Below are positions 3,813 to 40,064 of a stretch of DNA of 64,000 nucleotides, in pieces; the first letter of the stretch is position 1; each line of letters opens with the position of its first letter. A program made the position numbers and the translations under genes. The notes under the pieces were generated by a model. The model saw only the letters and a program-made list of their open reading frames with translations. It made no database searches and was not told the origin of the DNA. The stretch comes from Nocardia testacea NBRC 100365 (GTDB lineage: Bacteria > Actinomycetota > Actinomycetes > Mycobacteriales > Mycobacteriaceae): assembly GCF_000308775.1 (NCBI RefSeq), contig NZ_BAGJ01000272.1:62001-126000 (forward strand). The letters run 5' to 3'.

Positions 3813-4448
3813 TCAGCGTTCGCGATCGGGACGGCCCGGCCACCGCGCATAGGGGATGCGGGCGATGTCCAGCACTTCACCGATCGTCGACCATTCGTTG
3901 CGACCCAGACGCGCCAGTGGGCGCAGCCGATCGATCGCGGGGAGACTGTTGCCACGGGCATCCGTGCGCACCACATCGGTATCGACCGCTGCATGCAGCA
4001 CCCGGCCGATCACCACGGTCGAGTCACCGAGCTCCAGGGAATGTTCGAGTCGGCACTCCAGTGCGACCGGCGACTCCGCGACCCGCGGTGGCGTCACGGT
4101 CACACTGGGCTCCGGTGTCAGCCCGATCTCGGTGAACTCCGACAGCTCGGCGGGAAAATCCGTGCCCGTGGCATTCACCTGTTCGAACATCGACTCGGTG
4201 GCCAGGCAGACGACGAACTCGCCGGTCTCGAGCACGTTGCGCAGCGAATCCTTTTTGCCCACCGAGGTGAACTGCACCATCGGCGGCGCGACACACGACA
4301 CCGTGAAGAAAGAGTGCGGGGCGAGGTTGTCGACTCCGGTGACCGACCGGGTGGACACCCAGGCAATCGGACGGGGAACGACAACACTGGTCAACACCTT
4401 GTAGAAGTCGCCGTATCCCACCACATCGGGATCGATACCGGTGCGCAT
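3813..4448 (-). CDS. flavin reductase family protein (FMN-binding split barrel)
   Basis: About 211 residues of the flavin reductase-like FMN-binding family. Typical landmarks are YKVLTSVVVPRPIAWVST near the N-terminus, NLAPHSFFTVSCVAPPMVQF, and the RNVLETGEFVVCLA segment. Members bind FMN and either supply reduced flavin to a monooxygenase or act as oxidoreductases; several flavin-dependent luciferase-like enzymes in this window would need reduced flavin, but no operon link is visible. ATG 4448 is preferred over ATG 4499 because GGAAGGAG lies 11 bp upstream and the family starts near this residue. Confidence 0.85.
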   Translation of the reverse strand: MRTGIDPDVVGYGDFYKVLTSVVVPRPIAWVSTRSVTGVDNLAPHSFFTVSCVAPPMVQFTSVGKKDSLRNVLETGEFVVCLATESMFEQVNATGTDFPAELSEFTEIGLTPEPSVTVTPPRVAESPVALECRLEHSLELGDSTVVIGRVLHAAVDTDVVRTDARGNSLPAIDRLRPLARLGRNEWSTIGEVLDIARIPYARWPGRPDRER

Positions 4449-34623: not shown

Positions 34624-35574
34624 TCACCGGGCGCGGCACGAATACCGCGCGGGCGGGCGGTTCCCTGGATTCGGTGGGCGGATCGGCCGGGTCCGGGGCG
34701 GGAAGTCGGCCAGCCCATGATCATGCATGATCGGTATGCCGTAGCGGTGCTCGAAGGCGGTCCGCAGTTCCGGGCCGGTGTGCGCACGACTGCAGATGGC
34801 GATTCGCACCGACGAACCGCGCGACCGATTCCCCGCGGACAGCTCGGACAGTTGCCGGAACACGGGCGGGTTCGCCGCGAAACAGGTGGCGCGGGCGGCC
34901 TCGATCCGGTCGAAGAAGGTCGCGGGATCGAACGGGCCGGCGATGGTGGTGCAACCACCGGCCAGCAGCGGCGCCAGAACTCCCAGGGCGATGCCGTCGA
35001 CATGGCACAGCGGCTGGATCGTCAGACTATGGTCGGCGCCGGTGAACGCGAAGATCTCGATGGCCAAACGGCACAGCGCGTTGAGGTTCATATGGTCGAG
35101 GACCGCGATCTCGGCATCGGCACCGCCTCGCTCGACATGGAGCAGCAGTGCCGGTGCGTCGTCGCCGACCCGCGCCGGTTCGGCAGTGTCGGGTTCGGCC
35201 GCGGTGAGCCTGTCGGCGGCGACAACGGCTCGGCCCGGATGGGCACGGGCGAATTCGGGCGCGGCGACCAGCACCCGGGTGTTCGCCCGGTCCATGCGGC
35301 GGCCGGCTTCGTCGGCGGGTAGCGCCGGGTCGAGGGGGACGACAGCGGCACCGACGCGCCACGCGGCGAAGAGCGTGACGACGAAGGCGGCGGTGTCGGG
35401 TAGTACGACCGCGAGCACGTCGCCGGTCGATACACCGGCGGCGCGCAGTGAAGTAGTGGCCCGCCGCACGGCATCCACGAATGCGGCGTTGTCCAGTTCG
35501 ATGTTGTCATCGGTGACTGCCGCGGCACCGGGAGCGATGACCGCACGGCAGTCCGGGAGTACTGCAAGGTTCAT
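34624..35574 (-). pseudogene. AMP-dependent ligase-like gene, truncated and degenerate
   Basis: 316 codons that follow the N-terminal domain of acyl-CoA synthetases (GDVLAVVLPDTAAFVVTLFA, GAAVVPLDPALPADEAGRRM, LAGGCTTIAGPFDPATFFDR). The essential ATP motif TSGTTGxPK is replaced by an unrelated ERGGADAE stretch at about 148-155, and the frame stops soon after the A5 region (MHDHGLAD), so the rest of the N-terminal domain and the whole C-terminal lid are missing. It cannot be a functional ligase. The start (ATG 35574) still looks normal. It is divergent from the PucR regulator. Confidence 0.75.
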
Positions 35575-37040: not shown

Positions 37041-37226
37041 TCAGGTGCGGTCGACCTCGACCATGAAGAAATCGGCTTTCGCCGCGCCGCAGTCGGGGCA
37101 CGACCAGTCGTCGGGAATATCGTCCCACCGGGTGCCGGGCGCGATACCGTCCTCGGGCCAGCCGAGCGCTTCGTCGTATTCGAAACCGCATTGCACGCAC
37201 TGGAACACTTTGTAGCCGGTGGTCAT
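37041..37226 (-). CDS. rubB: rubredoxin, AlkG2-type
   Basis: 61 residues. The iron-binding pairs are CVQC (10-13) and CPDC (43-46) with the typical [19 protein letters not shown] between. No Arg follows the second CxxCG, so it belongs to the AlkG2-like type that can pass electrons to alkane hydroxylases. It is the last gene of the alkB operon, starting 1 bp after the first rubredoxin's stop. No rubredoxin reductase gene is in the window. Confidence 0.92.
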
Positions 37227-37227
37227 C

Positions 37228-37407
37228 TCACTGTCCTCTCGTCGGGCCGGCCGGTTCGAAATCGATCTTTTCCCGCACGCCGCAGTCCGGGCAGCACCAG
37301 TCGTCGGGAACCGCCGACCACGGAGTACCCGCGGGGAAGCCTTCGCGTGGCGCGCCGGTGGTCTCGTCGTAGCGGTAGTCGCACACCGGGCAACGGAAGA
37401 CGGCCAT
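37228..37407 (-). CDS. rubA: rubredoxin, AlkG1-type
   Basis: 59 residues, easily missed because of its length. Iron ligands are CPVC (6-9) and CPDC (39-42), with [18 protein letters not shown] between. The second motif continues GVREK; an Arg close behind the second CxxCG marks the AlkG1 type, which as I recall does not support AlkB turnover by itself. Its ATG overlaps the alkB stop (ATGA), so it is translationally coupled to alkB. Together with the next gene it gives the actinobacterial order alkB-rubA-rubB. Confidence 0.92.
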
Positions 37408-38630
37408 CAGCCCGCGACCCCGTACCGGGCGAGCACGCGGTCCCGCTTGCTCGGCTGGATGTTCACCCGGGTGATATCACCCCGGTAGTGGGCCAGAACG
37501 CGATGATCCATCACTTTCCGCCACAGCGGCGGGACATAGGCCAGAGTGATCATGCTCGCGTAACCGGCGGGCAGTTCGGGTGCGCCGTCCATACTGCGCA
37601 GGGTCTGGTAGCGCCGGGTGGGCGCGGCGTGATGGTCGCTGTGCCGCTGCAGGTGGAAAAGGAAGATATTGGTGACGAGGTGATCGGAGTTCCAGCTGTG
37701 TTCCGGCGTGCACCGGACGTATCGGCCGGATTCGGTGCGCTGCCGGAGCAGGCCGTAGTGCTCGAGGTAGTTCACCGTTTCCAGTAGCGAGAATCCGTAC
37801 ACGGCCTGCAGCAGCAGGAATGGCAGCACACCCGGACCGAACAGCGCGACCAGGGCGCCCCACAGCACCACGGACATCGCCCAGGCATTGAGCACATCGT
37901 TGCGAACTGTCCACGGGCTTTTGCCCATACGCCGCAACCGTGTGCGCTCCAGCGCCCACGCCGACCGCAGACCGCCCGCGACGCTGCGCGGCAGGAAGGT
38001 CCAGAAGGATTCGGCGAACCGGGCGCTGGCCGGGTCTTCCGGTGTGGCGACGCGGACGTGATGTCCGCGGTTGTGCTCGATGTAGAAATGCCCGTAACCG
38101 GTCTGCGCCAGCGTGATCTTGGACAGCCACCGTTCGAGATCGTCCTTCTTGTGGCCGAGTTCGTGGGCGGTGTTGATACCCACACCACCCATGACCCCTA
38201 CGGTGAACGCCACCCCGATCTTCGACCACAGCCCGAGCCCGCCCTCGATGCCCAGCCAGGACAGGTCCGGCGCGGTCCACAGGTAGGCGGCGAACACGAG
38301 GCTCGCCAGCTGGAACGGGATGAAGGCGTAGACGCACCAGCGGTAGTAGCGATCGCGCTCCAGGTGCTCCATCACCTCCTCGGGCGGGTTCTGACCGTCC
38401 GGCCCGAAGAACCGGTCCAGGACCGGTAGCAGCACATAGACCAGCAGCGGGCCGATCCACCACCACACCGCCGCCGCCGGCTCCCACCCCAGCCGGTGGC
38501 ACGCCCACACCAGCACCGCGGCCAGGCCGAGCGAGGTGGGTGCCACCAGCCCGAACAACCACAGGTACCGCTTCCGGTCACGCCACTGCGGCGCGACCGC
38601 GCCGCGCGACCTCTGCTCGGACGTCGTCAT
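37407..38630 (-). CDS. alkB: alkane 1-monooxygenase
   Basis: 407 residues, an integral membrane di-iron hydroxylase. The His boxes HELGH, EHNRGHH and RHSDHH and the NYLEHYGL motif are intact. It hydroxylates n-alkanes at the terminal carbon using O2 and electrons from rubredoxin. ATG 38630 has GAGGAGG 6 bp upstream, better than the ORF start at 38645. The operon continues with two rubredoxin genes. A promoter with an overlapping palindrome lies at 38733-38770, and the regulator is read divergently from 38809. Confidence 0.95.
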   Translation of the reverse strand: MTTSEQRSRGAVAPQWRDRKRYLWLFGLVAPTSLGLAAVLVWACHRLGWEPAAAVWWWIGPLLVYVLLPVLDRFFGPDGQNPPEEVMEHLERDRYYRWCVYAFIPFQLASLVFAAYLWTAPDLSWLGIEGGLGLWSKIGVAFTVGVMGGVGINTAHELGHKKDDLERWLSKITLAQTGYGHFYIEHNRGHHVRVATPEDPASARFAESFWTFLPRSVAGGLRSAWALERTRLRRMGKSPWTVRNDVLNAWAMSVVLWGALVALFGPGVLPFLLLQAVYGFSLLETVNYLEHYGLLRQRTESGRYVRCTPEHSWNSDHLVTNIFLFHLQRHSDHHAAPTRRYQTLRSMDGAPELPAGYASMITLAYVPPLWRKVMDHRVLAHYRGDITRVNIQPSKRDRVLARYGVAG

Positions 38631-38732
38631 CGTCGCCCTCCTCACTTCCGTGCGGCCGCCGCTGGGCGACGGGCGCTGTGGTCGGTGCCGGGGCGCATCC
38701 CACCGGCGCCGACCTTTTACACTTTTTCAATT

Positions 38733-38753
38733 TGTGTATTAATTACATACACA
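38733..38753. promoter_or_regulatory. TetR operator candidate over alkB -10 element
   Basis: TGTGTAT-N7-ATACACA, a perfect inverted repeat with 7-bp arms in an AT-rich patch. It covers the -10 hexamer of the alkB promoter, so binding of the divergent TetR protein would block RNA polymerase. Confidence 0.7.
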
Positions 38754-38770
38754 TGGTCTGCAACTGTCAA
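38742..38770 (-). promoter_or_regulatory. alkB promoter, sigma-70 type
   Basis: On the minus strand TTGACA (38770-38765), 17 bp, then TGTAAT (38747-38742): a perfect -35 and a one-mismatch -10 with ideal spacing. This is unusually close to consensus for such a GC-rich genome. Transcription should begin near 38735 and read into alkB. Confidence 0.7.
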
Positions 38771-38808
38771 TAGAGGAGCAGACGCGCAGATAATGTAAGG
38801 TGATTGCC

Positions 38809-39414
38809 GTGGCTGACGCGCCGAACTTCCAGAACGAGATGCGCCGAATACTGCGGGAGCGGGTGATCGCCACCGCACGCGAGCTGGTCTGCACCGAGGG
38901 GTGGGGCGCGGTCAACATGTCCCGGGTGGCCAAGGAGGTCGGCGTGAGCCGCCCCGTGCTCTACAAGGAGATCGGCTCCAAACAGGATCTGGCCGAGGTC
39001 GTGATCGCGGCCGAACTCGACTCCTTCCTCGCCGGCGTCACCGAGACCGTCACCGCCGAATCCGGCGACCTCCTCGCCGGAATCACCGCCGCCGCCGAGT
39101 ACACCCTGCGCACCGCGGCCGACAACACCCTGCTCAAGGCCGTACTGGCCGGCCGTTCCGGAGCCGACACCACCCTGCTCCCCACCTTGATGACCGAACC
39201 CGAACCCGTACTGGGCCGGGCCACCGCCGCATTCACCGCCATCCTGCGCGCCCGGTACCGCCTCGACGCGTTCAGCGAGGCCGAGATCGGCACCCGGGTC
39301 GAAGCGGTGGTACGCCTCGCGCTGAGTCACCTTTTCCAGCCCGCGGGCACCATCGACCACGCCGTCGCCCAGATAGCCCTGGTCGCGGGGCCGCTGTTCC
39401 ACCGCGAATCCTAG
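38809..39414 (+). CDS. TetR-family regulator of alkane operon
   Basis: 201 residues. Helix-turn-helix at about 15-60 (ARELVCTEGWGAVNMSRVAK, EVGVSRPVLYKEIG). The length and look resemble the TetR proteins linked to actinobacterial alkB operons (AlkU/AlkX type). In Rhodococcus the gene commonly follows rubB; here it is divergent from alkB. GTG 38809 has AAGGTGA upstream; GTG 38800 is possible. It probably binds TGTGTAT-N7-ATACACA and responds to an alkane product such as a fatty acid. Confidence 0.85.
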   Translation: MADAPNFQNEMRRILRERVIATARELVCTEGWGAVNMSRVAKEVGVSRPVLYKEIGSKQDLAEVVIAAELDSFLAGVTETVTAESGDLLAGITAAAEYTLRTAADNTLLKAVLAGRSGADTTLLPTLMTEPEPVLGRATAAFTAILRARYRLDAFSEAEIGTRVEAVVRLALSHLFQPAGTIDHAVAQIALVAGPLFHRES

Positions 39415-39608: not shown

Positions 39609-40064
39609 ATGTACCCCTCTGCTCCGAAACACACCGGCACCGGCGGTGACGCGGGTGCTCCGCTCCTGGAAGACACATTGCTGATCCGCAGATGCGCACG
39701 GTGCGACAGGCTGTACGCACCGCTGACCGTCGACTGCGCGTCGTGCGCGGCCGACAGCCTGGAGTGGGTCCCATCCAGCGGCGCCGGGTCGATTCTGTCG
39801 TGGCGGGTGGTGGACCGGGGCGTCATCGGCGGGCGCGGGGAGACCATGCCCCTGACGGTCGCCGTGGTCGAACTCGACGAAGGCCCGTGGGTCTACACCT
39901 CGATCGAAGGCAATATTCCGCTGGTCGCCGCGGGTCCGGTGCGGGTGCGCTTCCGGCCGCGGCCCCGCGACGGCAGGTTCCCGGTCTTCACGGTCGACAC
40001 CGAGACCGGCACCCCCGGCCCCCGCGCCGCCGACCGCTCCGGAGGCGAACATGCCCGCACCTGA
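39609..40064 (+). CDS. DUF35 zinc-ribbon/OB-fold protein
   Basis: 151 residues. An N-terminal rubredoxin-like zinc ribbon with two CxxC pairs (RRCARCDRLY and VDCASCAAD) is followed by an OB-fold (SILSWRVVDRG to RVRFRPRPRDGRFPVF). DUF35 proteins normally form complexes with thiolases or HMG-CoA synthase and channel acyl-CoA. No thiolase gene is in the window, so its partner is elsewhere. ATG 39609 has only a weak ribosome site. The next gene overlaps it by 14 bp. Confidence 0.85.
   Translation: MYPSAPKHTGTGGDAGAPLLEDTLLIRRCARCDRLYAPLTVDCASCAADSLEWVPSSGAGSILSWRVVDRGVIGGRGETMPLTVAVVELDEGPWVYTSIEGNIPLVAAGPVRVRFRPRPRDGRFPVFTVDTETGTPGPRAADRSGGEHART

Follow-up and report, generated by a model that had tools for sequence, protein, structure and literature searches.

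What controls alkB in Nocardia, where a TetR-family regulator gene can lie divergent from it? The question is raised by a locus in Nocardia testacea NBRC 100365, within a stretch of 64,000 nucleotides (hereafter the window). Here alkB on the minus strand and the TetR gene on the plus strand point away from each other, and the space between them holds an AT-rich island, which a preliminary description had pointed out and which at 38716-38771 has 28.6% G+C against 69% for the window. That description read in the island an alkB promoter with a 21-base palindromic operator over its -10 box, and predicted repression by steric block.

In the available parts of the published reports, AlkX of Mycobacterium tuberculosis (Rv3249c) represses the alkB operon and binds its upstream region (PMC9430723), AlkX of Dietzia has an unusually long operator and fatty acids as its ligand (PMC8784404), and AlkU of RHA1 is a TetR repressor of alkB which binds the alkB promoter region (PMC6921075). 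For the divergent TetR-alkB pair in Nocardia no paper was found, as judged by titles and abstract openings, and a literature search with the operator string gave nothing related; a four-part operator of Dietzia AlkX may already be described.

The divergent alkB/tetR locus

The alkB gene (37407-38630, minus strand) encodes an alkane 1-monooxygenase-like membrane hydroxylase with a match to Pfam FA_desaturase. Its name comes from gene context and relatives rather than from a curated model, and an NCBIfam search of its product gave no match at 0.001. It is followed on the same strand by the rubredoxin genes rubA1 (37228-37407) and rubA2 (37041-37226), both with Pfam Rubredoxin matches. The next gene after rubA2 is a convergent PucR-type regulator gene, and the gene order of the window has no rubredoxin reductase gene after rubA2.

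The regulator gene (38809-39414, plus strand) encodes a protein with TetR_N and TetR_C_35 domains (PF00440 at E 6.9e-9 and PF18556 at E 7.5e-20, both above the gathering score), which places it in the TetR family. Its predicted model is all-helical (pLDDT 88.5), and the fold matches agree with this family. The closest named records are from N. sienata (95% identity), N. fusca, N. grenadensis and N. rhamnosiphila. We prefer the GTG at 38809 as its start codon, as 71 of the 79 rows have GTG in that alignment column and 7 have ATG; a start at 38800 is unlikely, since the relatives align at 38809.

Four alkB paralogs are found in this genome, the window copy included. The other three lie on contigs C135 and C15 (L002, L012, L013, L014). 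Contig C135 carries an ordinary alkB-rubA1-rubA2-tetR operon with a further alkB after it, and the divergent locus exists besides it.

From a palindrome to a four-element array

The palindrome TGTGTAT-N7-ATACACA can be read directly in the plus strand at 38733-38753 (TGTGTAT TAATTAC ATACACA) as a perfect 7+7 inverted repeat, and on the minus strand TTGACA (38770-38765) is followed after 17 bases by TGTAAT (38747-38742), a hexamer inside the palindrome; in both respects the letters are as the preliminary description gave them. Allowing up to three mismatches, the palindrome pattern occurs once in the window, against a mean of 0.23 in shuffles and at least one occurrence in 20 of 100 shuffles. 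The window has 138 perfect 7+7 inverted repeats whose spacer is 3-10 bases long, 17 of them with a spacer of 7, and of 2000 dinucleotide shuffles of the surrounding 100 bases, 70 yield one or more (8 of 2000 with spacer 7). The palindrome is thus unremarkable on its own, and it is the comparison with relatives that decides.

For this comparison we searched 150 Nocardia genomes with the TetR at E 1e-30. It was found in 79, and its best hit is divergent from an alkB gene in every one of them, which makes a divergent arrangement the norm for this TetR in Nocardia. When the 79 alkB/tetR intergenic regions are aligned, just 7 of the 77 rows that can be scored have perfect palindrome arms (a gap excludes L074 and L083 from the palindrome and hexamer counts), and the exact letters occur only in the genome of the window. 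The alignment that had been proposed as a check therefore speaks against conservation of the palindrome, while the TGT and ACA cores within it are present in 79 of 79 rows. Given arms so rarely perfect, and repeats that also arise by chance (70 of 2000 shuffles), we reject the palindrome as the regulatory unit. It corresponds to elements 2 and 3, with their flanks, of a larger array, and this 55-base array of four elements is the conserved unit.

The array has the form TTTACA-N13-TGT-N11-ACA-N13-TGTCAA and occupies 38716-38770, as defined by column conservation in the 79 aligned regions and by blind genome scans. Element 1 (TTTACA, 38716-38721, plus strand) has T38718 and the following A, C and A in 78 of the 78 rows that reach it; the remaining row (L071) ends short by its annotated start, and its genome (G066) has the whole array. 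Element 2 (TGT, 38735-38737) and element 3 (ACA, 38749-38751), both given for the plus strand, are the invariant cores named above. Element 4 (38765-38770) is TGTCAA on the plus strand and TTGACA, the alkB -35, on the minus strand, where it is exact in 76 of 79 rows. The conservation of element 4 has two possible causes, because it is also a consensus -35. The cores of the four elements form a mirror-symmetric arrangement centred on 38743, with distances of 16, 14 and 16 bases between neighbours, and the array reaches from the alkB -35 to about +19 of the predicted alkB transcription start.

The near-invariant blocks in the 79 aligned regions are these four elements plus a TG-TAnnnT motif (38794-38801). 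Of the 79 regions, 72 have the complete set of four elements, a count for which letters were read in alignment columns, so that a row gapped elsewhere may count as complete, and L074 and L083 lie outside the 72. The array is almost certainly a conserved, functional regulatory element, larger than and different from the 21-base palindrome.

Promoters of alkB and tetR

The preliminary description had called the alkB promoter readable, and its -35 is borne out as a sigma-70-type element by the 76 exact matches to TTGACA. Its -10 is doubtful. The candidate TGTAAT (38742-38747, minus strand), 17 bases from TTGACA, is found in 15 of 77 scorable rows, in which the hexamer at this distance is TTCAAT in 17 and TCTAAT in 12. 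T, A and T are common at positions 1, 4 and 6, and A at position 2 occurs in none of the 79 rows, so the A2 and T6 of a sigma-70-type -10 are not found together. A promoter scan of the window lists no promoter in the region upstream of alkB, because the scan requires an A as the second base of the -10. Locus L037 has 13 bases between element 1 and the alkB start codon, with a Shine-Dalgarno-like AGGAG among them, and alkB transcription there must therefore begin inside or before the array. This arrangement favours the TTGACA promoter for alkB despite its odd -10.

The tetR gene has a -10 of its own, TG followed by TAAGGT (38794-38801, plus strand), which represents the TG-TAnnnT block; TAnnnT is present in 79 of 79 rows and the TG before it in 77. 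From TGTCAA to this -10 there are 23-24 bases in the 74 of 79 rows in which a script located it, a near-fixed distance that fits back-to-back alkB and tetR promoters being tied to each other. Since only 6-7 bases separate the -10 and the start codon (72 of 74 rows), the tetR message is probably leaderless, starting at 38809.

Association of the array with the TetR in Nocardia

In a blind scan at exact spacing with one mismatch, the array pattern matches in 77 of 148 Nocardia genomes, and the reversed control in none. Matches were tallied by genome rather than placed individually at the alkB/tetR locus, and on this count 75 of 78 TetR-positive genomes have the array (G078, G079 and G147 are the misses) against 2 of 70 TetR-negative ones (G103 and G145). 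An alkB orthologue (at least 76% identity, the next group having at most 72%) is present in 78 of the 148 genomes, all of them TetR-positive when the lists are compared by eye. Three more distant TetR hits (L097, L098 and L099) are without alkB in the fetched stretch. The pattern has one occurrence in the genome of the window; pattern searches show no array at the three remaining alkB genes there, including that of the ordinary C135 operon.

Arrays and TetRs beyond Nocardia

At E 1e-20 the TetR is found in 101 of 401 genomes of the family, and 40 TetR loci were fetched (L130-L169). A divergent alkB is kept at three of these (L130, L131 and L132). At 11 of the 40 (L133, L135-L138, L141-L145 and L147) the gene opposite the TetR gene encodes a flavin oxidoreductase instead. 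The oxidoreductase of L137 matches the NCBIfam cholesterol oxidase model at E 5.8e-173, yet below the curated cut-off, and those of the other ten loci are 78-81% identical to it. The TetRs beside these cholesterol-oxidase-like (GMC) genes of other genera fall on the same side of the tree described below as that of the window and have the same array layout, but by their position they would control the flavin oxidoreductase and not alkB.

The array is retained at these oxidase-facing loci, slightly altered in some of them: the centre of L138 is one base shorter, the alkB locus L130 likewise lacks one base, and one core base is changed in L136, L141, L143 and L147. The strict four-core pattern is present in 17 of the 40 TetR loci, counting L141, where it is wrongly placed, and L151-L153 and L155, which may have another layout, and it is mostly absent in the more distant ones. 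As the array is kept where the TetR faces a cholesterol-oxidase-like gene, the sequences suggest that it goes with the regulator and not with alkB.

Scanned blind, 93 of the 401 family genomes have the array, against 5 of 401 for a control that was counted by eye. By our own count the scan list holds 66 distinct sites outside Nocardia. Among 45 of these, chosen by hand rather than at random, 27 have alkB immediately downstream, 7 adjoin the oxidase and TetR genes, and 11 have neither alkB nor the oxidase as a neighbour, several of the 11 being near P450, AurF-type or PF10118 genes.

In other genera, arrays from the blind scan are seen not at alkB but beside a P450 gene with a ferredoxin (L246), P450-reductase fusions (L252, and L253 by its matching start), further P450 genes (L265 and L268), an AurF-type gene (L247) and a PF10118 gene (L266). 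By their position the P450, AurF-type and PF10118 neighbours may also be controlled by a repressor of this kind.

Relation to AlkX and AlkU

The preliminary description had set the divergent TetR gene against the order of many Rhodococcus operons, and this holds: the ordinary loci that were fetched have the TetR gene after the rubredoxins, as does contig C135. Sixteen further loci were fetched, nine of which have alkB and rubredoxins before the TetR gene. TTTACA-N12/13-TGT-N11-AC[AG] is found before alkB in eight of these nine (L227 is the miss), and also in L164 and L165. The consensus of 21 ordinary-operon sites is TTTACAAA...TGTCTAGAC...GACAAA...TATAGTCAA, from which it follows that in ordinary operons the fourth element is fused with a -10-like TATAGT. 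A matching operator layout upstream of alkB is thus shared with ordinary operons of other genera, and is absent at C135 and L227.

The regulators themselves differ. The ordinary-operon TetR of L164 matches Rv3249c at E 1.7e-87, against E 2.7e-16 for the TetR of the window. In a tree of 55 TetRs, for which the program warned of long branches and which has neither Rv3249c nor Dietzia AlkX among its sequences, 16 ordinary-operon TetRs split from the rest with 100/100 support, and the TetR of the window stands on the other side, outside the AlkX/AlkU clade. Nor does it share the AlkX/AlkU gene order (alkB, rubredoxins and tetR on one strand), being divergent here and in all 79 Nocardia genomes. 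Because of the weaker match to Rv3249c and the opposite side of the tree, we do not class it as AlkX; by sequence it is a lineage separate from the AlkX-type TetRs.

By analogy, however, it would work like AlkX. AlkX of M. tuberculosis (Rv3249c) and of Dietzia sp. DQ12-45-1b has the TetR fold in common with it, although the AlkX gene follows the rubredoxin genes and the Nocardia TetR gene is divergent. A Foldseek search with the TetR model has Rv3249c as its best match and Dietzia AlkX as the fourth, and the VIA-align matches span no more than about two Z units, singling out no nearest family. In Rhodococcus jostii RHA1, AlkU is the last gene of alkB-rubA1-rubA2-rubB-alkU, whereas the Nocardia TetR gene is divergent and the locus is without rubB; the comparison between the two concerns family, gene order and operator. 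As far as the available part of the RHA1 report goes, the AlkU-bound alkB promoter region contains the repeat IR2 (ACAAATcTtcAtATTTGT), itself of the ACA...TGT form, two AlkU-DNA complexes were seen, and the inverted repeat ACAAAT...ATTTGT upstream of alkB has ACA and TGT as outer cores, as in the Nocardia array (PMC6921075). The control of alkB in Nocardia is most likely a variant of the AlkX/AlkU kind of regulation with a simple spacing rule.

Pairing of the putative half-sites

Which elements pair with each other can be approached through covariation. Within the genus this was calculated on MAFFT columns for 75 rows, with relatedness kept in and L051, L071, L074 and L083 dropped for gaps; when elements are placed by script, these four rows and L056 have them at unusual distances, some being misplaced. 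Position 5 of the dyad formed by elements 1 and 2 ranks 3 of 646 column pairs, and that of the dyad of elements 3 and 4 ranks 34. In 22 thinned rows the two rank 13 and 14 of 681. The inner pairs of the centre are below expectation (mean -0.071 in the 75 rows and -0.062 in the 22), and across the dyad of the whole site covariation is seen between the flanks on the outer side of elements 1 and 4 (ranks 8 and 12 of 646).

A divergent set of 18 arrays, mostly from other genera, omits L130, L138 and L141 for deviant spacing or cores, as well as loci without the pattern. Here the first rank of 1002 goes to position 5 of dyad 3+4, dyad 1+2 gives no signal (position 5 at rank 236 of 1002), and the inner centre pairs covary with a mean of 0.172, against 0.212 for dyad 3+4. 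Among 21 ordinary-operon arrays no dyad pairs are clearly above chance. As a whole the sequences lean towards a pairing of 1 with 2 and 3 with 4 without settling it.

Proposed mechanism and alternatives

On its observed conservation, geometry, coupling to the TetR and recurrence, we infer, with a probability of about 0.7, that the array at 38716-38770 is the operator of the divergent TetR, most likely bound by two dimers and occluding the alkB promoter. Each ACA or TGT core would be the half-site of one TetR subunit, with one dimer occupying elements 1+2 and a second, next to it, elements 3+4, and the site would be symmetric as a whole. The bound repressor would span the alkB -35, the region of the -10 and the initially transcribed sequence. 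Because the cover would extend from the -35 (element 4) onward, RNA polymerase would be excluded from the whole promoter and not from the -10 alone. Transcription of tetR should also drop under the same complex, because its promoter is back to back with that of alkB and its -10 lies 23-24 bases past element 4. The repressor would probably be released by a product of the alkane, either a long-chain fatty acid or an acyl-CoA. Of the original proposal, an operator over the alkB promoter that acts by steric block, the likely TetR operator and its consistency with steric repression stand, and the palindrome as its unit does not.

That proposal in its own form, with one TetR dimer on the palindrome over the -10, TTGACA merely the -35 and TTTACA something else, we regard as unlikely. 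TTTACA is as invariant as the centre, and it is no alkB promoter element, because it lies downstream of the predicted alkB start. A single dimer at the centre could draw on the perfect palindrome of the window, the universal TGT and ACA cores, the covarying inner pairs of the divergent set and the presence of TGTATTTGACAAATACA in L131, but in Nocardia the inner pairs do not covary, the arms are seldom perfect, and the spacing of the outer elements is preserved across genera and targets. Much less probable is that a regulator other than the divergent TetR reads the array. The genome G145, without a TetR hit at E 1e-30, does have a perfect array, and some arrays lie beside P450 or diiron-oxygenase genes with no such TetR in the fetched stretch; the association of array and TetR (75 of 78 against 2 of 70) speaks against this reading, as does the retention of the array when the TetR faces another gene.

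Slightly more improbable still is an array that is no operator and consists of two face-to-face promoters, with TTTACA and TTGACA as mirror -35s and the -10s overlapping at the centre. Both outer elements are indeed -35-like and each is 17 bases from a central hexamer. However, position 2 is A in 0 of 79 rows in the minus-strand hexamer and in 6 of 79 in the plus-strand one (38740), tetR owns the conserved TG-TAnnnT beside its start, and in ordinary alkB operons the array is placed differently relative to the -10-like TATAGT.

The reading we prefer, a TetR operator with two dimers, can be carried further, if only tentatively. The 16/14/16 operator of four half-sites might be a grammar common to two deeply separated TetR lineages, marking a regulon of hydrocarbon and lipid oxidation (alkB, the cholesterol-oxidase-like flavoenzyme, P450s with ferredoxin and diiron oxygenases) and in Nocardia coupling back-to-back promoters, so that one array would set the levels of both alkB and its repressor. 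If so, a short spacing rule would find the operators of alkane-oxidation repressors blind from actinobacterial DNA, regulons would become predictable in unannotated genomes, and the array would offer a target for biosensor design. One operator layout in two TetR lineages, kept while targets and gene order shifted, would also be a case of regulator-operator coevolution. Probes with the 21-base palindrome alone would miss the outer half of the site.

Further observations

Two of the distant TetR copies mentioned above (L097 and L098), in two Nocardia genomes, have slightly degenerate arrays. In G145 the array (L203, at about 3988-4041) is perfect on both strands, the genome giving no TetR hit at E 1e-30, and no clear target gene is seen among its neighbours. 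Genome G174 has a second, strongly symmetric array (L256) besides that of its divergent alkB/tetR locus, and one neighbour of this second array encodes a DUF6226 protein.

Sites resembling the palindrome are found elsewhere in the genome of the window on contigs C24, C188 and C248. The C24 copy (1442-1462, L016) has one mismatch and lies about 70 bases before a dehydrogenase-like reading frame, which we take to be a glutamate-type dehydrogenase; the array pattern has no match there. In the window itself, a frame at 34627-35574 on the minus strand encodes a short AMP-binding enzyme of 316 residues, which matches acyl-CoA ligase models in its N-terminal part only, and downstream of the TetR gene, at 39609-40061 on the plus strand, a small ChsH2-type OB-fold domain protein is encoded.
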